A stretch of DNA of 64,000 bases from Ancylobacter tetraedralis (GTDB taxonomy: Bacteria; Pseudomonadota; Alphaproteobacteria; Rhizobiales; Xanthobacteraceae): positions 596,682 through 660,681 of the forward strand of contig NZ_JACICD010000001.1 in assembly GCF_014195655.1 (NCBI RefSeq), written 5' to 3'. The notes beneath the pieces were generated by a model. The model searched no databases. It had not been told where the DNA came from and saw nothing but the letters and a program-made list of their open reading frames with translations. This document shows, one piece after another, positions 9,470 to 26,844 of the stretch (the first letter of the stretch is position 1; each line of letters starts with the position of its first letter). Made by a program: the position numbers and the translations under genes.

Positions 9470-10180
9470 TCAGGAGGGATCGACCGGGTGCACGTGCCAG
9501 TGCTCGTGCACATGGCGATGGCCGTGACGCTCTCCCGGCAGCAGCCGGCGGTCGTGGATGACCATCGCCCGTGTCGCCAGTTCGGCGATGAAATGATCGT
9601 CATGCGAAATCAGCAGCATGGCGCCGGGAAAGGCGTGCAGTGCCGCCCGCAGGCGCTGGCCGTTTTCCGCGTCGATGCCGTTGGTCGGCTCGTCCAGCAT
9701 CAGCACGTCCGGCTGCATGGCAAGCAGGCCGGCCAGGCAAACGAGCCGTTTCTCGCCGCCGGACAGGCGATGGCTGATGCGCTCGGCCAGGTGGCCGATG
9801 GCGAGCGCGTCCAGCGCCGCCTGCGCGCGCCGCCGTGCCTCGTCCGCCGTGCAGCCCATGTTCAGCGGGCCGAAGGACACATCCTCGATCACGCTGGGAC
9901 AGAACAGCTGGTCGTCGCTGTCCTGGAAGAGAAAGCCGATGCGCGGGCGGAACCGCCGGAAGGCGCGCTCGTCGGCGCAGGCCGTGCCGAACAGCCGGAC
10001 CACGCCCCGCGCCGGTCGCTCCAGTCCGACAATGGTGCGCAGCAGCGTGGTCTTGCCCGCGCCGTTCGGGCCGACAATGGCCAGCCGCTCGCCGGCTGCC
10101 AGCGAAAGGTCCACGTCTGCGAGCACGGAGGTCGCGCCGCGGGTGATCGAGACGTTCTCCAGTGAAATCAGCGCGCTCAT
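9470..10180 (-). CDS. nikO: Nickel ECF transporter ATP-binding protein NikO
   Basis: This 236-aa cytoplasmic ATPase has Walker A GPNGAGKTT, a Q-loop in FLFQDSDDQLF, the ABC signature LSGGEKRL, Walker B VLMLDEPT and the switch His in ISHDDH. The DSDDQLF stretch is typical of CbiO/NikO energising subunits. The C-terminus is His-rich (HGHRHVHEHWHVH), which could bind nickel. It is the last gene of the minus-strand operon and overlaps nikQ by 4 nt (ATGA). Taken alone it could be cobalt CbiO; the NikR box and nikK/nikL favour nickel. Confidence 0.9.
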   Translation of the reverse strand: MSALISLENVSITRGATSVLADVDLSLAAGERLAIVGPNGAGKTTLLRTIVGLERPARGVVRLFGTACADERAFRRFRPRIGFLFQDSDDQLFCPSVIEDVSFGPLNMGCTADEARRRAQAALDALAIGHLAERISHRLSGGEKRLVCLAGLLAMQPDVLMLDEPTNGIDAENGQRLRAALHAFPGAMLLISHDDHFIAELATRAMVIHDRRLLPGERHGHRHVHEHWHVHPVDPS

Positions 10181-10887
10181 AGCCGGTCGATCACCAGGAC
10201 GGCGACGCCCGCGGCGGAAATCGCGCCGAAGCCGATCCAGTCCCGCAGAGGCGGAAATGGCGGGGCGTGGTAGGGGAAGCTGCCGGTATAGCCGCGGCAG
10301 AGCATGGCTTCCTCCACGCGCTCCGCCCGGTCAAGCGCGCGCACCAGCAGCATGCCGATGAGGTTGCCATAGCTGCGCCAGGTGTGGCGGCTGGAGCGCG
10401 GCCGGAAGCCGCGCGCGCGCATGGCGTCGTGCAGCCGGCGCGCCTCGTCGCGAAGCAGCGCGGTGTAGCGCATCGTCATCACGCAGAGCCGGGTGAGGCG
10501 TTCGGGAACGCGCAGGCCGCGCAGCGCGACGCCGAGGCGCGAGGGCTCGACATTGCCCAGCAGCGCCGTCAGCACGAGCACGCAGGTCGAGACCTTGGCG
10601 GCGATCAGCGCCGCACGCCACAGCCCGTCCTGGCTGGCGGTGAAAGGCCCGAGCGCGAACAGCGTATGCCCCTCCACGGTGAAGGGCAGGGTGGCGAACA
10701 GCAGAAGCAGGAAGCCCTCCAGATGCCAGAGGCGCCGCCACGGAAAGGCGAGGGGGGCGAAGACCCACGCCAGCGGCAGGACAAGCGCGAGCAGAACGCC
10801 CGCTACCGCCAGCGAGTGCAGTTGCGAGAGGCAGCCGATGGCGATGAACGCCGCGAGGAGCCGGAGGCGCAGGTCGGCGGGGGCCAT
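10177..10887 (-). CDS. nikQ: Nickel ECF transporter transmembrane protein NikQ
   Basis: This 236-aa membrane protein of the CbiQ/EcfT family has four to five hydrophobic spans. It carries two Ala-Arg-Gly-type coupling motifs (DAMRARGF and AMLCRGY) that contact the ATPase. ATG 10887 shares one base with the nikL stop (TGATG), so translation is probably coupled. It transmits ATP hydrolysis by NikO to the substrate-binding NikM. Confidence 0.88.
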   Translation of the reverse strand: MAPADLRLRLLAAFIAIGCLSQLHSLAVAGVLLALVLPLAWVFAPLAFPWRRLWHLEGFLLLLFATLPFTVEGHTLFALGPFTASQDGLWRAALIAAKVSTCVLVLTALLGNVEPSRLGVALRGLRVPERLTRLCVMTMRYTALLRDEARRLHDAMRARGFRPRSSRHTWRSYGNLIGMLLVRALDRAERVEEAMLCRGYTGSFPYHAPPFPPLRDWIGFGAISAAGVAVLVIDRL

Positions 10888-11450
10888 CACCGTCGCCGGC
10901 CTTTCGCCCAAAGGGCCATGCCGCCCAGCCCCAGGATGAGGAACACGCCCGAGAGCGCGTCAACTAAGCGCAGGCGGGAATCCATCGCCTCGATCCGCTC
11001 CTCCAGCGGCTCGATCTGCCGCTGCACCGCCGCCTCGATCAACGCGGCGAGCTGCGGGTCGGAGAGGGGGGCGCCCGTCGCCGTGCCCGTCGCCATTGGC
11101 GCGCGTGGCTCGGGGATGGCCCCCGCCGCGCCGCCCAGCCGGGCAGCCGGCAGCGTCACGGAGGCGATATGCGCCTCGCGCGTGTCGACGGTGATGGTGA
11201 GATCCGAGGCGGGAGGGGACGGAAGCGGGAAGGCGAAGCGCCCCTCCGCGTCGGTCAGCCCCGACGCGACCTCCGTTCCCTGCGTGTCCTTCACGGTCCA
11301 CGGCACGCCCTGCGGCCGCCCGCCGCCTATGAAGAAGGCGTAGCCGCCGATCGTCGCCCCCTCGACGGTCGCGAACAGCTTGAGCTTGTGGGCCTCGGCC
11401 GCCCCGACAGGGCCGAGAAGGACGAGCAGGCAAAGGATGACGCGGATCAT
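10887..11450 (-). CDS. nikL: Nickel transporter accessory protein NikL
   Basis: This 187-aa protein has an N-terminal signal or anchor segment (about 1-20, then AHKLKLFATVEG). A beta-sandwich periplasmic part resembles carboxypeptidase-regulatory folds (DAEGRFAFPLP). A linker helix follows (QIEPLEERIEAMDSRL), and a C-terminal membrane span with a basic end (ALSGVFLILGLGGMALWAKGRRR). That is the NikL/CbiL-type layout seen in nikMLQO systems that lack NikN. It overlaps nikM by 4 nt. The family is needed with NikM for nickel uptake; the metal is inferred from context. Confidence 0.82.
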   Translation of the reverse strand: MIRVILCLLVLLGPVGAAEAHKLKLFATVEGATIGGYAFFIGGGRPQGVPWTVKDTQGTEVASGLTDAEGRFAFPLPSPPASDLTITVDTREAHIASVTLPAARLGGAAGAIPEPRAPMATGTATGAPLSDPQLAALIEAAVQRQIEPLEERIEAMDSRLRLVDALSGVFLILGLGGMALWAKGRRR

Positions 11451-12091
11451 GGCGGCGACGACGAGGTCGCGGATGATACCGCGATGACCGGCTGTAGCGC
11501 CTCCGGCTGCACGCGCGCCAGAAAGCCCACGATGGCCGCGGTCACGAAGGCTTCTCCCACCGCCAGCGGCAGATAGGTGGCCATCAGCACGCTGGCGACG
11601 GGGGTATATTGCGAGAAGGAGAGGGCGAGCGACAGCGCCACCAGCCCGCCCGTGCCCATGACGCTGAGCGCCCCCACCGCCCCGGCCAGCGTGGCGCGCA
11701 GGACGCCGCTATGCGTCGCCCGGATCGCCGGACCGAGCAGGAGGGCGAAGACGACGCCCGGCAGCGCGATGTTGACGGCGTTGACGCCGAGCGTCGTCAG
11801 GCCACCGAAGCCGAACAGCAGCGCCTGCAGCAGCAGGATGACCAGCACCACCGCGAAGGTCGCGGTGCCCAGCATGATGCCCATCATGCCCGACAGCAGC
11901 ACATGCACGCTGGAGGGGCCGACCGGCACGGCGATTAGCGATCCCGCGAACACCGCCGCGCCGAGGATCGCCGCGCGCGGGATCATCCGGTCGTCGAGCC
12001 GCCGCAGCGCCAGCGCGACGCCAGCGGCCGTGATCAGCCCGCCGCCGATCAGCACGGGAAGCGACAGGATGCCATCGGGAATATGGGCCAT
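11447..12091 (-). CDS. nikM: Nickel-specific ECF substrate-binding membrane protein NikM
   Basis: This 214-aa CbiM/NikM-family protein has about six to seven membrane spans and the conserved start AHIPDG(I/V)L. In this family the N-terminal amine and His2 coordinate the metal. Here the gene encodes Met-Ala-His, so removal of Met before Ala would put His at position 2. A second conserved His is in SSVHVLLSGMMG. It starts 6 nt after the nikK stop. It captures nickel from the periplasmic side. Confidence 0.9.
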   Translation of the reverse strand: MAHIPDGILSLPVLIGGGLITAAGVALALRRLDDRMIPRAAILGAAVFAGSLIAVPVGPSSVHVLLSGMMGIMLGTATFAVVLVILLLQALLFGFGGLTTLGVNAVNIALPGVVFALLLGPAIRATHSGVLRATLAGAVGALSVMGTGGLVALSLALSFSQYTPVASVLMATYLPLAVGEAFVTAAIVGFLARVQPEALQPVIAVSSATSSSPP

Positions 12092-12097
12092 GGGCGG

Positions 12098-12874
12098 CTA
12101 TTTCTCGCCCATGTCGGTGGCCTTGACCCAGATGAGCGCGCCCAGTTCCACCGGCACATCCTTGCCTTCCGGCGACTTTTGCGGCGCATCGGCCTCCAGC
12201 AGCGCGGCAAAGCCCCACCAGCCGCCGCGCGGCATGGCGTAGCTGAAGGTGCCGTTCGCGTCGGCCTTGAGGACCTGAGTCACGAAGGCATCATTGGGCG
12301 GCGTGACCGACCCATCATTGATGAATTCCACCTCGACCTCGGCGAATGGAACCGGCTTGCCGTTCTTGAGCACGATTCCGGAGAACAGGTTTCCGGTCCA
12401 GAGGCCGGTGGGGCGGGTGAGTGGCTGGATTTCCACCGGCAGCCCGACCAGCGCGTCCCAGCCCTCGCCGGAGGCGAAGCCGTCGACGATGACCTTGGCG
12501 TAGTGGACGATCAGCTTGCCCTCGGCGGGCTCCCAATAGGGTTGCGGCTCCACGTAGAAGACCGCCGCGCCCGGCGTCGTCAGGTCATGGCGCAGCGACC
12601 AGGCGCTGTGGCCCGCCACCGGCTTTTCCGTGATCTGCGCGGTGAGATCGGTCTGCGTGCCATCGGCCAGCATGCCGACGCGCACCGGCTTTCGCATGTC
12701 CATGACCGGCCCGCCCTCGACCGGGTGGGTGAACACCATGTCCAGCGTGACGATGCCGCCCTCCGGCAGCACGTCCGCCGATGGGATGATCTCCTGAAAA
12801 TGCGCCGAGGCGGCGCAGGAGCCGAGCGAGAGGCCCAGAAGGGCGAGGCGAAACGAAGCGGCGATCCTGACCAA
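12098..12874 (-). CDS. nikK: Periplasmic nickel transporter component NikK (DUF4198)
   Basis: About 258 aa. A signal peptide (about 1-24, ending in ASA) would release a mature protein starting His-Phe-Gln. Conserved DUF4198 signatures follow: [40 protein letters not shown] and [16 protein letters not shown]. The likely start is TTG at 12874, since no ATG or GTG fits between the NikR box and the signal sequence; this start is uncertain. NikK-type proteins accompany NikMLQO in many proteobacteria and are thought to present nickel or help the complex. It is the first gene of the operon. Confidence 0.88.
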
Positions 12875-12886
12875 GCGGCACCCGTC

Positions 12887-12914
12887 GTATGAATATTGTG
12901 AAGATTTATCATAC
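12887..12914. promoter_or_regulatory. NikR operator (exact GTATGA-N16-TCATAC)
   Basis: GTATGA at 12887-12892 and TCATAC at 12909-12914 are separated by exactly 16 nt. This is the NikR recognition pattern known from the E. coli nik promoter. It lies 13-40 nt upstream of the nikK start in an AT-rich patch that probably contains the -10 region. Nickel-bound NikR would block nikKMLQO transcription here. No nikR gene is in the window. Confidence 0.9.
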
Positions 12915-13106
12915 AAGCGCCATGGCTCGCTGCAAGCGCGCGGTGTCGCGCGGGGGACAAATGTCTCACCGCGCAGTCGTGCCGGGTCCGCCGATGCCGG
13001 CGGCGCGCCGACGGGCGGCATCGGGAAGGGTGGCGGGAGGGGGCATTTCGACCTTTGACGAATTGTGCTAGGCAGCAGCGTGGAATGTCGAGCAGCAAAG
13101 CGTCGG

Positions 13107-14213
13107 ATGGGCCGAAGGCCCCTTGTGGTCGGGGTACTCGCGCTGGCGGGTTCGCTCGCCCATAGTCCTTTCACGGGCGTGTTGCCGGTATGGGCTGCGG
13201 CCCAGCACCAGCCGGAGCCGGCCGCCAATCCGGCGTCAGCCGCGCCAGCCGCTGCCGCGCCTCCCTTGGCCTGGCCGTCCGGCGACGGGAGTGTACCCGC
13301 CACGCTCCTGGTGCCGGTCGCCCACGTTCCCGCAGACCTTGTGGCTCCCTCCTATGCGGGATGGCTGACCGATCCGCCGCATGGGGCGCTGCCCGGCGAC
13401 AAATTCGTCGCCCGTGGGCCGGGAGCGGTTGGGGCCGAGGTCTTCCAGCGGGTGAGCGCGCTTGCTCCGCCTTCCTCGGCGCCGCCTTCCTCCGCGCCGC
13501 CTTCCTCGGCGTCGATTTCCCCCGCCCTGATCCCTCCGGCCTTGCCTGCCGCCTTGCCCGCATCATCCGCCCCCCTGCCGCCGAAGCGACTGGTGGAGAA
13601 GCGCGGGATTGTTCTGGCATCGCTGGCGCCACTGCCGCCCCGGCGCCTCGCGGAGCCGGTCTCCGTGGCGCCGCCGGAGACGGCCGCGCGCGAGGAGGCC
13701 CCGCCGGCGGGCGCGCCGGCACCCGGCGACAATGCGGTAGACGCCGGCACCGAGGCCGCGCCGGAGGATATCCCCCAGGAGGATGCCGCGCGGTCCATCG
13801 ATGACGCTCCCGAGTCGGCGGCGGCCCGGGCGTCGGCCGATCGCGCGCCCCCGCATATCGAGGTGCTGATCCAGCGTCATGCCGAGCGTTTCGATGTGCC
13901 CGCGCGGCTCGTGCGCCGCGTGGCCTGGCGGGAGAGCAGGTTCAACCAGAGCCTTCGTCACGGCCCCTATTGGGGATTGATGCAGATCCGCGTCGACACC
14001 GCGCGCGCCCTCGGCTTCCGGGGGGCGCCGAACGATCTTCTCGAGGCCGACACCAACATGGCCTACGCCGTCGCTTATCTCGCCAATGCGTATCGGGTCG
14101 CCGGGCGCGATGAGAAGCGGGCGGTGACGCTCTATGCCAAGGGCTATTACTACGAGGCCAAGCGCAAGGGCATGCTCGGCTCCCTCATCCGCACCGCAAC
14201 CGCCGAGCCATAG
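13107..14213 (+). CDS. Periplasmic lytic transglycosylase (SLT domain)
   Basis: ATG 13107 gives [16 protein letters not shown], a signal sequence; TTG 13065 is an alternative. Residues about 35-250 are a low-complexity Pro/Ala/Ser region, including a three-fold 15-bp repeat coding PPSSA at about 13468-13512. The C-terminal 120 residues are a lysozyme-like SLT domain: the catalytic Glu in WRESRFN, then GLMQI and AYLANAYR. It would cleave peptidoglycan without hydrolysis. The product is about 368 aa. It is monocistronic, divergent from nikK. Confidence 0.85.
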
Positions 14214-16495: not shown

Positions 16496-16660
16496 GTGAA
16501 GTACACGCTGCTTGGACGGACCGGGCTCAGCGTCTGCGACCTGTCTCTGGGGACCGCGAATTTCCGCCGGCATTGGGGGCATGGTGCCGATGAGGCGGAG
16601 AGCGCCGGCGCTTTCTCCGGGATGGGTACTCGCCGACGAAGCGGCGGAGCGGGTCAATCG
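16496..16660 (+). pseudogene. Aldo/keto reductase remnant
   Basis: GTG 16496, after a GAAGGAAG ribosome site, opens MKYTLLGRTGLSVCDLSLGT followed by WGHGADEAES. This is the classic N-terminus of an aldo/keto reductase of about 330 aa. The similarity stops after about 40 codons. In another frame, PGWVLADEAAERV around 16615-16660 resembles an AKR C-terminus. An internal deletion of most of the gene is the simplest reading. It abuts the convergent oxidoreductase gene. Confidence 0.6.
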
Positions 16661-17676
16661 GCGGTCACGATCAGCTTCTTGCCACTATGGCTGCCGTCAA
16701 ACAGCGTCAGGAGCGTCGCTGGAAGTTTCTCGAAACCATCGATGAGTTCTTCGCCGAACGTGATCTTGCCACTCGTGACCAGGGGCGTCATCTCGGCCAG
16801 GAACTCGGGGAAGGTGTGCATGACATAGGGCGTCGCGAAGGACTTGATATCGACGAACCGGTAGTGGATCAGCGTGATCAGCCGCGGCAAATAATTCGTC
16901 CCGGTCGGCAATTCGGTGTCGCTGTAGTCAGCGATCGTGCCACAGATGACCATCTTCGCGTTGGTGTTGAAATATTCCATCAGAACCGGAAAAATTGGGC
17001 CGCCGACATTCTCGAAGAAGGCGTCCATCCCGTCGGGGAGCGCGCGCTTGACGTGTTCGGCGAAGTCGTCGGCCTTGTAATCGATCGCATCGTCCAGGCC
17101 GAGTTGATCCTTGAGGTAAGCCGTCTTCGCGGCACCACCCGCGATACCGACAACGCGCAGCCCGCGCAGCTTTCCGAGCTGCGCGGCTGCCGAGCCGACC
17201 GAGCCCGCCGCTCCGGTGACCACCAGCGTGCCGCCGGGCTTGAAGTCATGGACCTTCGTCATGCCGTACCACGCGGTGAAGCCGGTGAGACCGAGCGGTC
17301 CGAGCGCGGTCGTCGGTGGCGCGACGCCGACATCCAGCTTGCGAAGATCGGCACCGTCCGAGACCGCATAGTCCTGCCAACCCGACCACGTCTGAACGCG
17401 ATCGCCGACGACGAAATCCGGGTTTCGGCTTTCCTCGACCACGGCGACCGTCGGGCCGCCCATGGGCTCACCGATCTCGATCGCGGGCCATTCGGACGAA
17501 CCGTTACCCATCAGGTTGCGCTGATAGGGATCGACCGAGAACAGCGTGTTGCGGACGAGCACCTGCCCCTCAGCCAGCGGCGGCACCGGCGCTTCCACAA
17601 GCTTGAAGTCGCTCAGTTTGGCCGCCCCCTTGGGGCGCGCGGCGAGCGTAAATTGGCGGTTCAGCGTTTTGGTCAT
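16654..17676 (-). CDS. NADPH-dependent oxidoreductase, CurA/PTGR-like MDR family
   Basis: This 340-aa medium-chain reductase lacks zinc ligands. The N-terminal part (FSVDPYQRNLM) and the nucleotide-binding motif GAAGSVGSAAAQLGK (about residues 150-165) match the prostaglandin reductase/curcumin reductase type, which reduces enone double bonds with NADPH. FFENVGGPIF and YLPRLITLIHYR follow. It is divergent from the TetR gene across a region with three copies of an operator, so it is very likely the TetR target, perhaps in defence against reactive aldehydes or enones. Confidence 0.88.
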   Translation of the reverse strand: MTKTLNRQFTLAARPKGAAKLSDFKLVEAPVPPLAEGQVLVRNTLFSVDPYQRNLMGNGSSEWPAIEIGEPMGGPTVAVVEESRNPDFVVGDRVQTWSGWQDYAVSDGADLRKLDVGVAPPTTALGPLGLTGFTAWYGMTKVHDFKPGGTLVVTGAAGSVGSAAAQLGKLRGLRVVGIAGGAAKTAYLKDQLGLDDAIDYKADDFAEHVKRALPDGMDAFFENVGGPIFPVLMEYFNTNAKMVICGTIADYSDTELPTGTNYLPRLITLIHYRFVDIKSFATPYVMHTFPEFLAEMTPLVTSGKITFGEELIDGFEKLPATLLTLFDGSHSGKKLIVTAD

Positions 17677-19124: not shown

Positions 19125-22100
19125 TCAGAACTTCACAGTGAGCGAGGCGTTGAAGCTGTTCTGCGTCACGCCGTCACCGAACTGGCCGGTATAGGCGATG
19201 CCGAGCGTTGAGCTGGCGCTCAGGCGCAGATCCAGACCGGCTTCCAGCACGGCGGCGTCTTCCGCGATCGGCACCCCGGTGACGGTGAAGGCATCCGAGC
19301 CGAGGAAGGCCTGCGTGACCGACGGCGCGATGTCGCCAAAGGCATGGCGCCAACCGAGGGTCCCCCGCAGGGTCGCCTCATAGGCACCCAGCGTCAGCTC
19401 TCTGGACGCCCGCAGGCCGAGCGTCGCGAAAGTGGTGTCGAAGTCCGAGCCGTCGGAATACAGAGCCGCGGCGCCGCCCTGCTCGGTATAGCCGTCGGTG
19501 TTCAGATGGACATAGGCGAGGTTGGCGAAGGGTTCGAGCGACGCAAAGGGCGCCTCGATCCGGTAGCCCAGCTCGCCGAAGGCCTGGAAGGTCCCGGCAT
19601 TGTAATCCGCGGAGAGGCTGTCGGCAAAGCCGGGGAAGGCAACCGTCCGGCCGGTCGAGACGTCATGCCATGTGTAGGCGAGCCCGGAGCGCAGGGCGAG
19701 CGCGTCCCACGTCTTGCCGGCGTAGAGGCCGACATGCCCGTTATCGCTGCTGCCGGAGGCGTTGCGCCCGCTCACCGAGAAATCGGTGTAGATGTAGCCG
19801 CCGGCGACGCCGACCCGCCAGCCGTCGAGGATCACCGTGTCGGCGCCGATCAGGAAGCCGCCGGTGGAATTGGTGACGCCGGCGGCGTTGCCGGTGCCGT
19901 TGAACGAGCCCCAATTGCCGAAGCCCGTGGTCCACAGCGCGAATCTTTCCGCCGGTGCCACCAGGGGAGCCGCCTTCATTGGCATGCTCATATCGGCAGC
20001 GACCTGCACCTTGGAGGGCGCGGCATAGGCGAGCGCGCCGTCCGGCGTCTCGACCACGCGGACGACCGTGCCGGCGGCGGCGCCAACGCTGCCCTGCGCG
20101 CCGCGCAGCCGGTCGTTCAGCGCGCCGCGAATGAGGCTGCTCTGCTCCATGAACACGCTCTGGGCCGAGGCATGCACCTCGCCGGAGAGCTGGTCGAAGG
20201 CGCCTGGCGCCTGGCTGGCGGTGAGCTGCAGCACGCTATTATAGACGGGGTTGCCGAGGCCGAGCGACTGCGCCGCATTGGCCACGGCGCCTTGATTGGC
20301 GGTCATCGCCGTCGCGGCGAAGTCGACATCGTTGCGCGCCAGCGTGAGATACACATTGCTGCCGTCATAGCTCAGCGACGGACTGATGAAGGCGTAGTTC
20401 GACACGACGTCCGCGAACTGTCCGGCGACGCCGGCCTGCGCGGCGAGGATGGTGTAGGTGGCGAGCGGGTTCCCATAGCCGGCCTGTGCCAGCAGGGAGA
20501 CCGTTCCGCCCGACAAGGTCGCCGTACCGGTGGCGGTGATGAGATCATGCCTGCCGTCGGCCCACGCCTCGGCCGCATAGGTCGAGCCGGCCGCGAAGGA
20601 GACATTGCCGTTGACGGTGAGGGTGCCCGGCGACGTGCCCGGCGCGACGGTGCCGCCGCTGCCGACGACAAGCCCGCCAATCGTGCCGCCGCCGCCCAGC
20701 GTGCCGCCGCCGAGCACCGAAACCGGCCCGCCAAGGCTGCCATTCACCTGGAGAAGCCCGGCTTCGATCGTCGTCACGCCGGTGAAGGCCGAACCGTTGC
20801 CGGTGTAGTTCAGCCCGCCGGCACCCAGCTTGGCAAGGTCGCCACTGCCGGCGAGCGTGCCGGAAAGCGCGAGCGTCGTGCCGGCGGCCACGTCGAACCC
20901 GCCGGACGCGGCCACATTCACGGCACGCGCGGAAGCGAAGCTGGCCGTCGTCGACAGCGTGCCGCCGGCAAGGGTGAGCCCGCCCGCGGCATCGCCGAGA
21001 TTGGCGTCCGCCGCCACCTGCACTATGCCATCGCTCAGTTCCGTGCCGCCGGTGTAGGTGTTGGCGCCGGTCAGCACCAGCGTGCCGGCCCCGGCCATGA
21101 CCACCTTGCCGCTGCCCGCGATCGGCGCGGCCAGCGTCGCGAGATCGGTGAAATTGCCGATGATCGCGCCGTCATTCGCGATGACCCCGGCATCGACGGC
21201 GCCGGCCGCTCCGCCGCTGCCGATGACGAGGCGGCTGCCGGCATTGACGTGCAGCGTGTCGCGCACGCGGACCGTGCCCCCATCGGCGACCGTCAGCGTG
21301 CCGGCATAGTCGAGGGGAAGGAAGCCGATCTCCATGAGACCGTGAACCTCAAGCACCGATCCGGTGCCGGTGACCAGCATCGAGGTCGGCGCGCCAAGAT
21401 CGGAGAAGGTCGCCGTCTGGTCCACCTCGAAACGTCCGCCGTCGCTGACGAGGAAGCCCCGCGTCTGCTCGACGCCGATCCGGGCGGCGCCCTCGACGGT
21501 CACACGCGAATTGGCGCCGCTCACCTCGACCACGCCGCCGTCGACCTCGAACAGGGCGTTCGAACCGCTCACCGTGAGCGAGCCGCCGCCGGCCACGGCC
21601 AGACGGCTGTCACCCACCGATACCGTGGAGGGATGACCCGTCGTCCCGTTCACCGCCAAACTGCCGCCGTCGATTGTGATGCCGCCACCCGCCCCGCAGT
21701 CGCAGAGCGACAGTGCGCCCAGCTGACTACCGGTACCGGTGAGGGTGAGCGTGCCGCTGCCGATCTTCTCCAGCAGGCCAACGCCGGCGAAGCTGCCGGT
21801 GAACCGCGTGTCGCGATTGTCGCCGCCGACCGACAGAGCGCTGTCCGGCCCGTCGAGAAGGACCGTGCCGCCGCCGAGCGCTCCATCTTCCAGCGCGGCG
21901 ATCTCCGCCCAGACGCCGTCGGCGATCTCGAGCCGCGCGCCCTGGTTGACGCGATGCGCCGACAGCGAGGACAGCCCGGAAGAGGTCTCCGCCCGCAGCG
22001 TGCCGGCCACAATGTCGGTCGCGCCCGCATAGGTGGTGTCGCCCGCCAGCGCCAGCACGCCGGCGCCCTGCTTCACCAGCCCGCCCGTGCCCTCGACCTC

Positions 22101-25100
22101 GCCGGCCAGCGTGACGATCGTGCCGTCCGCCACGTCGACGGTGCCGGTGGCGGACAGCGTGACCTGGCGGTTCGAGGTGAAACTTCCCGTCGTCGCCAGC
22201 GTGCCGCCGAGGAAGGTCAGCCCGCCATCGGCATCGCCGAGATTGCGGTCGTCGCTGATCTGCAGGACGCCCATCGCCAGCGTCGTGCCGCCCTCGTAGC
22301 TGTTCACGCCGGAGAGTTCCAGCGTGCCGGCGCCGGTCTTCAGCAGGCCCCCGCTGCCGATGAGCTGCGTGGCGATCTCGGCCGAGACATCGGCGCCAAC
22401 GCGAAACTCCGTGTCGGCGCCGGACAGCCGGAGGGCGCCCGCGCCTTCCAGCCGATAGCCGGTGGTGCCGAACTGCAGGCCCGCCACCGCCACTTCCTCG
22501 GTGACGTCGATAGTGCCCGCCGCGCCCACGAACACGGCGGTGAGACCCCCCCAGGGGTTGGCGCTCAGCCCGCTCGCGTCGGTCCAGTTGACGTTGCCAT
22601 TGTTCCAGACGCCGTCACCGCCGCGCACCGTGCCGGTCGGCGGGTCCTGCGAGCCGTTCCAGTATTGCAGCCCGTTCTGGCTGACGATGAGGTCCACCTG
22701 TCCGTCGTCGACGGCGAGAGCGAAGTCGTAGCCGACCGCGCCGGTCAGGATGAGGCCGTTATCGGCGGTCAGCGAGCCATAGGTGAACAAGGTGTAGGTA
22801 TAGGTGCCGAGCCCCGGCGGGGTGAGGTCCAGCGTGGCGACGCCGTCCAGCGTCAGCCCGCCCGTCACGGCGACGAGGTCGTTGTTGGGCCCGCCCACGA
22901 CGCCGGGCTGGCCGAGCTCGAACTCCAGGCTCGAGGCATTGTTCAGTACCAGCGAGCCCACGTTGAGCGTGCCGGGAGAATTGCCCGGCGTCAGGCTGCC
23001 GCCGTTGGCGACGGTCACTTCTCCACGGACCGTTCCCGATCCGCCGAGCGCCGCGCCCGCGCTCACCTCCACCGCGCCGCCGAGCGTGCCGTTCACCGCC
23101 AGTTCCCCGGCGGTGACGCGGGTCGTGCCGGCGAAAGCCGCGCTGTCGCCGGTATAGGCGAGCACACCCGCGCCGGATGTGGCGAAGGTGCCGGTGCCCG
23201 AGAGTGTGCCGGCATAGGTAGACGCCGTCGCGGCAACCAGTTCGAAGGTCGCGTCGCCGTCGATGCCGACATCGCCGGTGAAGCCGCCGGCGGCGGCCGC
23301 GAGCGTGCCGGCGTCGACCTGCCAGCTCTGCGCGCTCGTGCCCGAAAGGGTCAGCGTGCCCGTGCCGGCCTTGGTGAGCCCGCCGGTGCCGTCAAAGCTG
23401 CCGGCGAAGGTGGTCTCGCCGCTGCCGCCGATCGTCAGCCCGTTGGTGCCGAGCACGATGGAGGAACCGGCGATGCCGGACAGGCTGCCGATGCTGCGTG
23501 CGCCGTCGGCGGCCGAGATGTCAAACACGCCCGTTTCGCCATCGAGCGTCATCGCGCCAGCGGCGGCGAGGGCACCGCTTCCCGAGAGCGCCAGCGTGCC
23601 GGCGGAGATCGTGGTTCCCGCCGCGAAGGTGCTGGCGCTGGTCAGGATCACCGTGCCGGCGCCGGATTTAGCGAGGGCGCCGTCCGCGCCGCCGAGTACA
23701 CCGTTGAGGGTGAAGCTGTCGGTGGCGCCCAGCGCCGCGATGTCGAGCGTACCCTCCAGCGTGATGCCTCCGGTGGCGGTAAGGCTCAGCGAGGTGGCGC
23801 CGCCGGCCTCCATGAAGGTGGGATCGGCGCCGCCCATGGCGGTGGCGGCATTGCCGCCGCGCAGCGTGGCGCCGTCCTCGAAGGCGATGGTGCCGTCGGT
23901 GGAGACGCTGTTCGCGCCGCCGGCAACCAAGGTTGCGTCGGCGCCGACCGTGAAGGTGGAGGTCGCGCCGTCGAGTTGCAGCGTGCCCACGCCGACCACG
24001 GCGTCCTCGTCCTGCGTCGTCGGGTTCGCCACCTCGCCTGCGGCGAAGAGATAGAGCCGGCCTTCCGAGACGGCGAAATCGGTGCTGCCGGTGCCGGACA
24101 CCGCGAAGACGTTCGCGCCGCCCAGCGCCCAGGTCCCGGCCCCGGCCTTGGCCACGGTGTTGGTGACGTGGTCGGCGTCGCCGCTCATCGGGTCGCGCAT
24201 GTCGAGCAGCGCCCCTGTCTCCGCGCCCACCTTAAGCGCGGACGCCGTGTAGACGAAAAACGTCGGAGAAACGTTCATGCGGACGCCAGTCCCAACATGG
24301 ATCGCCGACGCCTCGCCATCGGCCATATTGCCGGAGAACAGGCTGCTGAAGCCATCGCTGACCGTCAGGTTGAGCGTGCCGCCTTCCAGCGCGATCGCAC
24401 CGCCTACCGACCCCGCGCTGTTGCCGGTGAAATCGCTGTCGACGATGCTCAAAACGAAGGGTCTGTATGGCCCTTCAGCCGAGATCGCACCGCCCTTTTC
24501 CCCCGCGCTGTTGCCAGAGAAGCTACTTTCTATGACCGTGGTCGGGGACGCGCCCGAGGTGTAGATCGCTCCGCCCACCGACAGGGCGTCATTGCCCGTG
24601 AAACGGCTGCGTTCGACGAGAAGGGTGCCAAATTGGCCGATGGCCCCGCCATAGCCACTGGAGTTCTCCGAGAAGGTACTGTCTGTTAGCGTCATGACGC
24701 CCGTATTCAGGATGGCGCCACTGGAAGAAGCCGCCGCATTGTCGATGAAGGTCGCGCGGGCGATGCTCACCGTTCCAGATGCGTTGTAGAGCGCGCCCCC
24801 CGTGCCAGCGTGATTCCCGGCGAAGATATAGCCCTGCATCTGGCCTTCCCCGACGCCGAGATCGAGCACGCTGCCGCTTCCAACGACGATGCCACTGTCG
24901 GTCCCGCTGATGGGGAAGCCGAACATGGTTAGCGCGGCATCGGCGCCTTCCAGGCGAATCGCACCGGCCTGCCCATCCGCTATCGTGATCGGTCTGTCGG
25001 TCGCCGGGTCGAGGGACACCAACCCGGTGATCTGCAGCGTCGGCAACTCGCCGCTGGCCTGTCCCTCGCCGATCGTCTGCCGGTAGCCGGCCTGCGCCGC

Positions 25101-26549
25101 CGCCAGCGCCGCCGCGTTCTCCACGGTCGGCGCGCTGGCATAGGTGGAAATGGCGGATGACAGGGTGGATCCAGCACTGGGAAGCCCGGTCACGCCGCTT
25201 ACCGGAGCATTGAAGCTGAGGTTGACGCCGTCGCCCAGCGCCGCCTTGTTCGCCACGCTCAGCGTGCCGGAGGTGAGGGTCGTGCCACCTTTGTATTTGT
25301 TGACGCCCGACAGCGTCAGAACCTGCGGCCCGACATCGACGACGACACGGCCCTGGCCGTTGACGTCGTTCGACACATCGGCGTCAATGCCGTCCAGCTT
25401 GAAGGTGAGCGAGCTGCCGGGGTCGTTCACGACCAGATTGCCGTTGAAGCTCCAGCCCTCCTGCAGCGTCAGGCTGTTGGTGCCGCTGAGGAATATAATG
25501 GCGTTCGCGCGCATCTCGCCGTCGCCGAACAATCCGCCGGAGATGGCGCCGCTGGTGGTGATGTCCATGTTGGAGCCGAACACGCCCCACCCGCCGGCGC
25601 CGATGACACCATCACCAAACTCGCCCGCGCCGCCTTTTGCCCCGTTCCCGCCGGTGATGGTGCCGCTGTTGTAGAGCGTCAGGCCGTTCAGAGCGAACAC
25701 GCCCGTACCGCCATCCCCGCCATTGGAGCCGTAGACGCCATCGGCGCCCTTACCGCCGTTCCCTCCGATGATCGTGACCCGATTGTCGAGGACCGACGCC
25801 GAATCGAAATAGACGCCGACGCCACCGTTGCCGCCGTCGCCGCCCCTGCCAAACTCGCCATTCAAGCCGGCTTGCCCGCCCGCGCCGCCATTGCCGCCGG
25901 AAACGACACCGCTTCCGGACAAAATGAGGCTTATGTTGCCTTGTCCGGAGATGCCGTATCCGCCTGCGCCGCCGCCACCGCCCGAGGCGCCAACGCGGTT
26001 GCCGGAGCTGAAGCCGCTGAAGCCGGAAGCGCCGTTGCCGCCATTCGTGCCGTAAATCCCCGCGACACCCGGATCGAGCGTCGCGTCGGTGCTCTGGACC
26101 GAACCCGAATGACCTCCGTCGCCACCATCGCCGCCGCCGCGTTGAAAACCGCCGTCATCCGGCGCATCGGCGCCTTTTCCGCCGGCCCCTCCCACCAGGG
26201 CGCCCGCGCCGCCACCGCCGCCACCGCCATAATAGGGGGTGCCCTCGTCCGAAGATTCGGTACCGTCCTCGCCATCCATTCCGTAACCGCCGCCCGCGGC
26301 TGACGGGGCATTTACCGCGCCGCCGTAGCCGCCGAATGTCTGCGCGCCAGCGGGAGATGCGATGAGGGTGCCGGCCAGCATGCACAGGACGAGAGGCGAC
26401 ACGCTTCCCAGCGCCGCGGCGCGGGTGCGGACGGGTGATGGACGCGCAGGTGGGAATGGCCTTGTCGCCCTGCCGCCTGCTGCCGCGATGTGGTTCACGC
26501 AATAGGTCTCGTGACGCTCACGCGCCCGCACTCGCCCGCCAAACCGCAT
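19125..26549 (-). CDS. Giant type V autotransporter (about 2474 aa)
   Basis: A long basic N-terminal extension and signal peptide (about 1-70, ending ASPAGAQ) precede a Gly-rich region (about 71-330, many GGxGG runs). Next is a first autotransporter-associated beta-strand repeat (TLSGVNKYKGGTTLTSGTL). A block at about 565-715 has chlamydial-Pmp-like motifs (FxxN with GGAI, as in GGAIYTSG and GGAISAEG). Many more PF12951-type repeats follow (GTLTLSGT, SGVNSYEGGTTL, LTGANTYTGGTEL). The last about 275 residues are a 12-strand beta-barrel ending LTVKF. It should be surface-exposed, probably an adhesin. ATG 26549 is one of several possible starts; a TTG at 26624 and a GTG at about 26498 are alternatives. 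Confidence 0.9.
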   Translation of the reverse strand: MRFGGRVRARERHETYCVNHIAAAGGRATRPFPPARPSPVRTRAAALGSVSPLVLCMLAGTLIASPAGAQTFGGYGGAVNAPSAAGGGYGMDGEDGTESSDEGTPYYGGGGGGGAGALVGGAGGKGADAPDDGGFQRGGGDGGDGGHSGSVQSTDATLDPGVAGIYGTNGGNGASGFSGFSSGNRVGASGGGGGAGGYGISGQGNISLILSGSGVVSGGNGGAGGQAGLNGEFGRGGDGGNGGVGVYFDSASVLDNRVTIIGGNGGKGADGVYGSNGGDGGTGVFALNGLTLYNSGTITGGNGAKGGAGEFGDGVIGAGGWGVFGSNMDITTSGAISGGLFGDGEMRANAIIFLSGTNSLTLQEGWSFNGNLVVNDPGSSLTFKLDGIDADVSNDVNGQGRVVVDVGPQVLTLSGVNKYKGGTTLTSGTLSVANKAALGDGVNLSFNAPVSGVTGLPSAGSTLSSAISTYASAPTVENAAALAAAQAGYRQTIGEGQASGELPTLQITGLVSLDPATDRPITIADGQAGAIRLEGADAALTMFGFPISGTDSGIVVGSGSVLDLGVGEGQMQGYIFAGNHAGTGGALYNASGTVSIARATFIDNAAASSSGAILNTGVMTLTDSTFSENSSGYGGAIGQFGTLLVERSRFTGNDALSVGGAIYTSGASPTTVIESSFSGNSAGEKGGAISAEGPYRPFVLSIVDSDFTGNSAGSVGGAIALEGGTLNLTVSDGFSSLFSGNMADGEASAIHVGTGVRMNVSPTFFVYTASALKVGAETGALLDMRDPMSGDADHVTNTVAKAGAGTWALGGANVFAVSGTGSTDFAVSEGRLYLFAAGEVANPTTQDEDAVVGVGTLQLDGATSTFTVGADATLVAGGANSVSTDGTIAFEDGATLRGGNAATAMGGADPTFMEAGGATSLSLTATGGITLEGTLDIAALGATDSFTLNGVLGGADGALAKSGAGTVILTSASTFAAGTTISAGTLALSGSGALAAAGAMTLDGETGVFDISAADGARSIGSLSGIAGSSIVLGTNGLTIGGSGETTFAGSFDGTGGLTKAGTGTLTLSGTSAQSWQVDAGTLAAAAGGFTGDVGIDGDATFELVAATASTYAGTLSGTGTFATSGAGVLAYTGDSAAFAGTTRVTAGELAVNGTLGGAVEVSAGAALGGSGTVRGEVTVANGGSLTPGNSPGTLNVGSLVLNNASSLEFELGQPGVVGGPNNDLVAVTGGLTLDGVATLDLTPPGLGTYTYTLFTYGSLTADNGLILTGAVGYDFALAVDDGQVDLIVSQNGLQYWNGSQDPPTGTVRGGDGVWNNGNVNWTDASGLSANPWGGLTAVFVGAAGTIDVTEEVAVAGLQFGTTGYRLEGAGALRLSGADTEFRVGADVSAEIATQLIGSGGLLKTGAGTLELSGVNSYEGGTTLAMGVLQISDDRNLGDADGGLTFLGGTLATTGSFTSNRQVTLSATGTVDVADGTIVTLAGEVEGTGGLVKQGAGVLALAGDTTYAGATDIVAGTLRAETSSGLSSLSAHRVNQGARLEIADGVWAEIAALEDGALGGGTVLLDGPDSALSVGGDNRDTRFTGSFAGVGLLEKIGSGTLTLTGTGSQLGALSLCDCGAGGGITIDGGSLAVNGTTGHPSTVSVGDSRLAVAGGGSLTVSGSNALFEVDGGVVEVSGANSRVTVEGAARIGVEQTRGFLVSDGGRFEVDQTATFSDLGAPTSMLVTGTGSVLEVHGLMEIGFLPLDYAGTLTVADGGTVRVRDTLHVNAGSRLVIGSGGAAGAVDAGVIANDGAIIGNFTDLATLAAPIAGSGKVVMAGAGTLVLTGANTYTGGTELSDGIVQVAADANLGDAAGGLTLAGGTLSTTASFASARAVNVAASGGFDVAAGTTLALSGTLAGSGDLAKLGAGGLNYTGNGSAFTGVTTIEAGLLQVNGSLGGPVSVLGGGTLGGGGTIGGLVVGSGGTVAPGTSPGTLTVNGNVSFAAGSTYAAEAWADGRHDLITATGTATLSGGTVSLLAQAGYGNPLATYTILAAQAGVAGQFADVVSNYAFISPSLSYDGSNVYLTLARNDVDFAATAMTANQGAVANAAQSLGLGNPVYNSVLQLTASQAPGAFDQLSGEVHASAQSVFMEQSSLIRGALNDRLRGAQGSVGAAAGTVVRVVETPDGALAYAAPSKVQVAADMSMPMKAAPLVAPAERFALWTTGFGNWGSFNGTGNAAGVTNSTGGFLIGADTVILDGWRVGVAGGYIYTDFSVSGRNASGSSDNGHVGLYAGKTWDALALRSGLAYTWHDVSTGRTVAFPGFADSLSADYNAGTFQAFGELGYRIEAPFASLEPFANLAYVHLNTDGYTEQGGAAALYSDGSDFDTTFATLGLRASRELTLGAYEATLRGTLGWRHAFGDIAPSVTQAFLGSDAFTVTGVPIAEDAAVLEAGLDLRLSASSTLGIAYTGQFGDGVTQNSFNASLTVKF

Positions 26550-26844
26550 CACCCGCCCCGTTCCCCCTCTGGCTCGCCCAACCAGAATCATCTCGCCAAT
26601 CGGTGTCCCGATGCCGTTACGCAAACTAGGACAGGAGGAGGCAGGGGGTCATGTCCTCTAAATAGAGGATGCGTCGCGGGTTCTCTCGTTTAGCCGGGTA
26701 CGAATCCCCTCGACCGAGGCCGGGACGGCGCTCGAGCATGTTCCGCAGAAGTTGAATGACGCGTGCGATCAGAACCGGTTCCTGCCCATTGAATCTGGAA
26801 CATTTTCGTGTCGATCCGATGCTTCCGTCCGATCGGAAAAGGCG

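Follow-up and report, generated by a model that had tools for sequence, protein, structure and literature searches.

The 64-kb window (the whole stretch of 64,000 nucleotides that was analyzed from the soil bacterium Ancylobacter tetraedralis) carries an exact NikR-type operator in front of a nikKMLQO operon, and the only NikR of this genome has lost all four nickel ligands. This protein belongs to a clade of variants that have the NikR fold and lack the canonical nickel site; it is probable that this natural clade controls nickel import via the unchanged operator by a new signal route, which would be a nonmetal ligand, a different metal, or a metal site relocated to the tail. The more specific reading that is favored here, and that is held tentatively, is that the operator of nikKMLQO is functional and that the ligandless NikR represses the operon, most likely reporting nickel sufficiency via a relocated site. 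The operator, the operon, the ligand loss, the residue conservation, the linkage, and the grouping of the variants into a single clade are computed observations.

The operator and the nikKMLQO operon

The sequence of positions 12887 to 12914 is GTATGAATATTGTGAAGATTTATCATAC, which matches GTATGA-N16-TCATAC with zero mismatches. The exact, mismatch-free site had been claimed in an earlier note on this DNA and is recovered by the pattern scan, and its identification with the published half-site pattern of E. coli NikR is in agreement with the available part of a review, which names GTATGA-N16-TCATAC as the operator of E. coli NikR (PMC7055735). The earlier note had also proposed a search for further sites; the exact pattern is present as a single copy genome-wide. 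Within the window, the site is the sole match when up to two mismatches are tolerated, compared with 0.38 matches in shuffled window sequences. The chance expectation for the exact operator, using a dinucleotide model, is 2.0e-4 per window and 0.016 per 5.03 Mb genome, and these counts, together with the genome-wide uniqueness, rule out a chance origin. When allowing up to two mismatches genome-wide, the operator is found at 11 places and the reversed control pattern at 13, which puts the weaker copies at chance level. The GC content is 25% for the operator 28-mer and 67% for the window. The features of this region are as follows.

12887..12914, strand not assigned: NikR-type operator GTATGA-N16-TCATAC, exact, by pattern scan; present before nikK in 15 of the 15 nikK-holding genomes of the genus
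12908..12913, minus strand: likely -10 hexamer TATGAT of the nikK promoter, inside an operator half-site plus one base beyond
12930..12935, minus strand: likely -35 hexamer TTGCAG, spacer 16, from the genus comparison
12098..12874, minus strand: nikK (DUF4198) with a putative TTG start; PF10670, E 6.9e-57, on the longer ORF 12098-13303
11447..12091, minus strand: nikM (CbiM family); PF01891, E 7.4e-51; NF004903 (cobalt transporter CbiM) above cut-off
10887..11450, minus strand: nikL; NF058648 (NikL family nickel/cobalt ECF subunit), 167.5 bits versus a cut-off of 100
10177..10911, minus strand: nikQ (CbiQ family); PF02361, E 1.7e-35; TIGR02454 (cobalt ECF transporter T component) above cut-off
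9470..10180, minus strand: nikO (ATPase); PF00005, E 3.1e-32; best NCBIfam model cbiO, below its cut-off

The profile matches and the gene order place nikK, nikM, nikL, nikQ, and nikO in one minus-strand operon, as expected for NikKMLQO, and the profile matches thereby support the five-gene operon that had been proposed to lie behind the operator; the nikL ORF has no Pfam match. The nikK reading frame is open from 12098 to 13303. The TTG at 12874 is taken as the probable start, because a signal-peptide-like stretch comes next and because the homologue of genome G084 aligns over its whole length from there (in the other 13 relatives the alignment begins at residue 5-14). With this putative start, the proposed distance of 13 nt between site and nikK holds.

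The operator overlaps a plausible -10 box of the nikKMLQO promoter. In the genus, this hexamer is TATGAT in 14 of 15 genomes and TATGCT in the remaining one, and a TTGC or TTGT hexamer is present 16-19 nt upstream of it in 15 of 15 genomes, when using a loose test that allowed TTGC or TTGT at 14-20 nt upstream and had no shuffled control. The nikK promoter is absent from the list given by a generic consensus promoter scan. NikR-type regulation calls for an operator at the promoter of the operon, and such an operator is found here at the predicted nikKMLQO promoter. A gene with an SLT transglycosylase domain (13065-14213) is divergent from nikK, and the shared intergenic region might expose this gene to the operator as well. 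Two further features of the window were noticed by eye, namely a 2499-aa ORF on the minus strand (19125-26624) with repeat-like passages and an autotransporter-like appearance, and a short ORF (16496-16828) that opens like an aldo/keto reductase N-terminus and then stops, possibly being a gene remnant.

The ligandless NikR and its clade

One NikR_C match is present in the genome, which is 99.88% complete; it is located on a contig (C13) other than that of the window, and a genome-wide profile search gives no second NikR_C match. The earlier note had predicted a nikR gene elsewhere in the genome and had made its reading depend on the existence of a homologue. The homologue does exist, but it is not an ordinary NikR. 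Its 157-aa ORF (L005:1342-1815), which is neighbored by a helicase-like ORF (read by eye) and a DJ-1/PfpI gene, aligns gap-free to residues 1-131 of E. coli NikR and has both expected domains (PF08753, 53.9 bits, cut-off 22; PF01402, 30.2 bits, cut-off 20.5). It passes the NCBIfam NikR equivalog NF002815 (111.9 versus 83 bits) and misses the NikR model TIGR02793 (111.4 versus a cut-off of 175.45); three further NikR models are also below cut-off. The nickel ligands of E. coli NikR are His76, His87, His89, and Cys95, according to the available text of the review (PMC7055735), and in the protein of this genome all of them are replaced (H76L, H87S, H89P, and C95S), such that the high-affinity ligand set of H87, H89, C95, and H76 of the neighboring subunit is lacking. 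R3, T5, E30, and D34 are kept, and T7 is an alanine, which is also found at this position in some canonical NikRs. From these sequence features, the regulator is filed as a putative member of a ligandless NikR-fold subfamily and not as a nickel-responsive NikR.

When considering the genus, 30 genomes were searched for nikK and NikR_C, and all 24 NikRs were read. nikK is present in 15 of the 30 genomes and NikR_C in 23, and seven have neither kind of NikR. Fifteen of the 24 NikRs are ligandless and nine are canonical, and the ligandless ones are confined to exactly the 15 nikK-holding genomes, which are kin, such that the 15 co-occurrences are not 15 independent events; G539 (L139, L124) is the sole genus genome with both kinds. 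The variant residues are L76, S87, P89, and S95 in 14 of 15 proteins, including that of the window's genome, with T87 in the remaining one. The operator precedes nikK in all 15 nikK-holding genomes (13 exact, two with one mismatch), and the pairwise identity across these operators is 97.8% for the half-sites and 54.0% for the spacer. The nikR gene is divergent and adjacent to nikK in 13 of the 15 genomes; it is located on another contig in the window's genome and in G084, where the nikR loci have no operator at up to one mismatch. The dN/dS values of the variants, calculated from 14 of the 15 genus sequences (the 159-aa one being omitted), are about 0.16 in the sensor domain, compared with 0.22 in the DNA-binding domain and 0.28 in the tail. 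At the sequence level, the ligand loss does not look like decay.

In the family survey, a NikR_C match is found in 61 of 149 genomes. The NikRs of 37 of those 61 genomes were read; 33 keep all four ligands, and the four that keep none belong without exception to the genus of the window. In a scan of named genomes, which shares some organisms with the genus set, at least 18 loci are found, and 16 of the loci listed lack H87, H89, and C95, the other two being canonical. These 16 variant loci are from Ancylobacter (5), Kaistia (2), Sinirhodobacter (2), Salipiger (2), an uncultured Rhodobacteraceae, Pseudooceanicola, Maritimibacter, Wenxinia, and Methylorubrum, and variants are known from at least nine named genera. 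Eleven of the 16 variant loci listed have lost H76 as well; the Salipiger group (five loci, from Pseudooceanicola, Salipiger, Maritimibacter, and Wenxinia) keeps it, and its variants may represent a step on the way to full loss. The operator upstream of nikR has no mismatch in 11 of these 16 listed loci, one mismatch in two, and two mismatches in one, and it is not found in two; nikKMLQO is adjacent and divergent to nikR in nine of the 16. The variant loci of Kaistia hirudinis and Methylorubrum podarium have neither an operator (up to two mismatches) nor nikKMLQO within 8 kb on each side. In the Salipiger group, the genes divergent from nikR resemble a nickel/peptide-type ABC transporter (Pfam check for Wenxinia only).

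A plasmid of Roseomonas marmotae encodes a variant NikR, at 77.7% identity, divergent to a nikKMLQO operon, and this pair is only a few genes away from urea transporter and urease accessory genes; the sole operator-like site found there has two mismatches. This gene is one example of such variants being publicly annotated as 'nickel-responsive transcriptional regulator NikR'. It is the only urease linkage seen, because tblastn searches with UreG and UreD of L155 find no urease genes in the window or in loci L060-L094. The variant clade looks rare: among 385 Alphaproteobacteria genomes drawn, the variant is found in the window's own only (one partial match, L111, lies outside the residue reading), and among 398 genomes drawn from the phylum, it is found in the window's own, one congener, and G916, the residues being read for matches with a locus.

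In a tree of 109 NikR rows, which includes 27 variants after removal of identical ones, the variants form one clade, as judged from their position on one side of a branch with a support of 100/100 and 200/200 bootstrap trees and a stem of 1.47 changes per column; the tree is built from few columns, and long branches meet in it, including one within the variants. The ligandless NikR of genome G189 is placed apart from this clade, among canonical relatives. In that genome (L109, the same gene as L157), the replacements are H76R, H87Q, H89P, and C95Y, and nikR is divergent to hupE (PF04955) with an exact operator in between. As an independent second case it was set aside, the three other genomes with a match, out of 25 searched, keeping H76, H87, H89, and C95; it may be a case of decay or of independent loss. 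A further NikR, L110, keeps H87 and H89 only. In Paracoccus yeei, nikR disruption abolishes urease activity, as described in the available part of the report (PMC11578231), and this experiment was not used as evidence on the variant, the P. yeei NikR (read from the plasmid of another strain) being canonical. Among the papers listed by the literature search, subscription journals aside, there is none whose title or abstract opening treats a ligandless NikR.

Residue conservation was counted over 32 variants from partly overlapping organisms. H79, D80, D91, H92, H123, H138, H140, H148, and H150 are invariant (32/32), and H146 is present in 30 of 32. E30 and D34 of the interdomain low-affinity/K+ site are kept in all 32. 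P89 is likewise found in 32/32, and position 87 is a serine in 31 and a threonine in one. In the named-genome scan, C58 is new in 10 of 17 variant rows (among the loci listed). The AlphaFold2 model of the Ancylobacter vacuolatus variant, a monomer, has a mean pLDDT of 77.1, with the tail modeled as a strand (block pLDDT 61-74). Its core superimposes on the regulatory domain of nickel-bound E. coli NikR (1q5y) at 0.9 A over 80 columns, and the whole-chain structure matches have rmsd values of 8-11 A, which can be put down to the domain orientation in the model. The HxH..HxH tail is found in 32/32 variants and also in 37 of 85 canonical NikRs, which rules out the C-terminal tail as a variant-specific feature. 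Since such tails occur in canonical NikRs too, the HxH tail is a candidate sensor site and not proof of one.

Regulation and the transported metal

In the proposed mechanism, a NikR-family ribbon-helix-helix protein would bind both operator half-sites before nikK. Since one half-site overlaps the -10 box, it is proposed that the bound variant blocks RNA polymerase by covering the -10 region along with the probable start point. The clade has lost the square-planar nickel site (H87, H89, and C95, and H76 too, except in the Salipiger group) but retains the NikR fold, the E30/D34 pair between the domains, and R3 and T5, the residues predicted to read the operator. The sensor may have moved, the best candidate being the C-terminal tail motif HxH-x5-HxHxH (138, 140, 146, 148, 150), and H79, H92, and H123 are possibly part of the relocated site. 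We infer the binding and repression, as well as the place and identity of the signal, from these sequence patterns. The low-confidence model of the tail, and its dN/dS of 0.28, which is higher than the 0.16 of the core, are points against a relocated site. The favored reading as a whole is also weakened by the unlinked nikR loci of the window's genome and G084 with their lack of an operator, by the loci of Kaistia hirudinis and Methylorubrum podarium, by the two-mismatch site of Roseomonas, and by the cobalt names of the M and Q subunit models.

It is conceivable, although unlikely, that the variant is a metal-independent repressor locked in the DNA-bound state, with nik expression being set by the amount of NikR, via a shared divergent operator, or by another factor. 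The absence of all four ligands in the window's genome, the near-uniform P89 and S87 of the variants, and the location of the operator between nikR and nikK in 13 of the 15 genus genomes, which would permit autoregulation, are consistent with this. A mere DNA binder, however, needs no conserved H79, H92, H123, and tail histidines, and autoregulation is not general, as the nikR loci of the window's genome and G084 lack an operator at that stringency. A variant that senses another metal or a small molecule in a remodeled pocket (cobalt, zinc, or a urease-linked nitrogen signal) is rather improbable. The pocket residues are not drifting but are replaced by conserved nonligand residues, C58 has newly appeared in many of the variant rows listed, uranyl is bound by an E. 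coli NikR engineered to have other ligands, according to the available text (PMC4101488), and the subunit models above cut-off carry cobalt names; against this, the targets remain nickel-type transporters by context, and separate cobalamin-riboswitch genes would serve cobalt in this genome.

There is little likelihood that the protein is a normal nickel-responsive NikR, for which low-affinity sites suffice and the ligand differences are immaterial. Although NF002815 is passed and the interdomain E30 and D34 are kept in every variant, the TIGR02793 cut-off is missed, and outside the clade the four ligands are kept in 33/33, 9/9, 13/15, and 30/31 NikRs of overlapping sets, the exceptions being L109 and L110 in the set of 15 and L157 in the set of 31. 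It is very improbable that the ligandless NikR is a remnant in decay, with the operator being used by another, unrecognized protein. The ligandless NikR beside hupE in G189, found in a single genome and on a long branch, suggests that ligand loss can be decay; in contrast, purifying selection acts on the genus variants, each of the 15 genomes with nikK has one, and the window's genome has no other NikR_C match.

When considering the metal, the earlier note had held that the operator fixes it as nickel rather than cobalt. This claim is not upheld: because the only NikR-family match lacks the high-affinity nickel ligands, the operator alone does not settle the metal. From the genomic context, nickel is nevertheless the likelier cargo of NikKMLQO, because there is no cobalamin riboswitch in the 64-kb window, and hence none before nikK, because separate riboswitch-linked cobalt genes are present, because the genome has two urease alpha genes, and because of the urease linkage in Roseomonas. 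The cobalamin riboswitches elsewhere in the genome precede cbtA/cobU and another CbiM-type gene; the latter (L115:1737-2453), apart from the nik operon, is a candidate cobalt transporter. As for nickel consumers, a NiFe hydrogenase has no match in the genome. Contrary to nickel, the curated models that the M and Q subunits match above cut-off bear the names of cobalt transporter components, and in the available part of a comparative study, cobalt uptake is predicted for five proteobacteria whose NikKMLQO operon neighbors B12 genes or follows a B12 riboswitch (PMC2667541). Cobalt is a possible cargo of NikKMLQO.

Comparison with known systems

According to the available part of the review, NikR is the sole metal-controlled ribbon-helix-helix regulator and has one well-defined high-affinity nickel site (PMC7055735). 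A conserved clade with the operator and the fold intact but three or four ligands missing would be a natural experiment on the coupling of metal sensing and DNA binding, and it suggests that metal assignments made from a NikR operator or the NikR name can mislead.

The system of E. coli NikR and nikABCDE shares with the present one the operator, the RHH and NikR_C architecture, an ungapped alignment over 131 residues, and R3, T5, E30, and D34. The variant differs in having the four ligands replaced, in the T7A change, and in the His-rich tail after residue 131, and its putative target is an ECF operon, whereas that of E. coli NikR is nikABCDE. Canonical alphaproteobacterial NikRs by nikKMLQO (G074, G044, G037, and G046) have the same transporter neighbor in 4/4 loci (L066-L069) but keep H76, H87, H89, and C95; in L066 and L067 nikR is also divergent with a one-mismatch operator, whereas in L068 and L069 it is on the strand of nikK, with no operator listed at up to two mismatches. 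When compared with the NikKMLQO of comparative genomics, in the available text of that study, the components K, M, L, Q, and O are likewise all in one operon, whereas the cobalt-predicted operons are B12-linked and the window has no riboswitch (PMC2667541). The engineered uranyl-binding NikR (V72S, H76D, and C95D), as described in the available text (PMC4101488), also combines the NikR fold with altered metal-site residues; that protein is man-made, whereas the variant described here belongs to a natural, conserved clade that has also lost H87 and H89.
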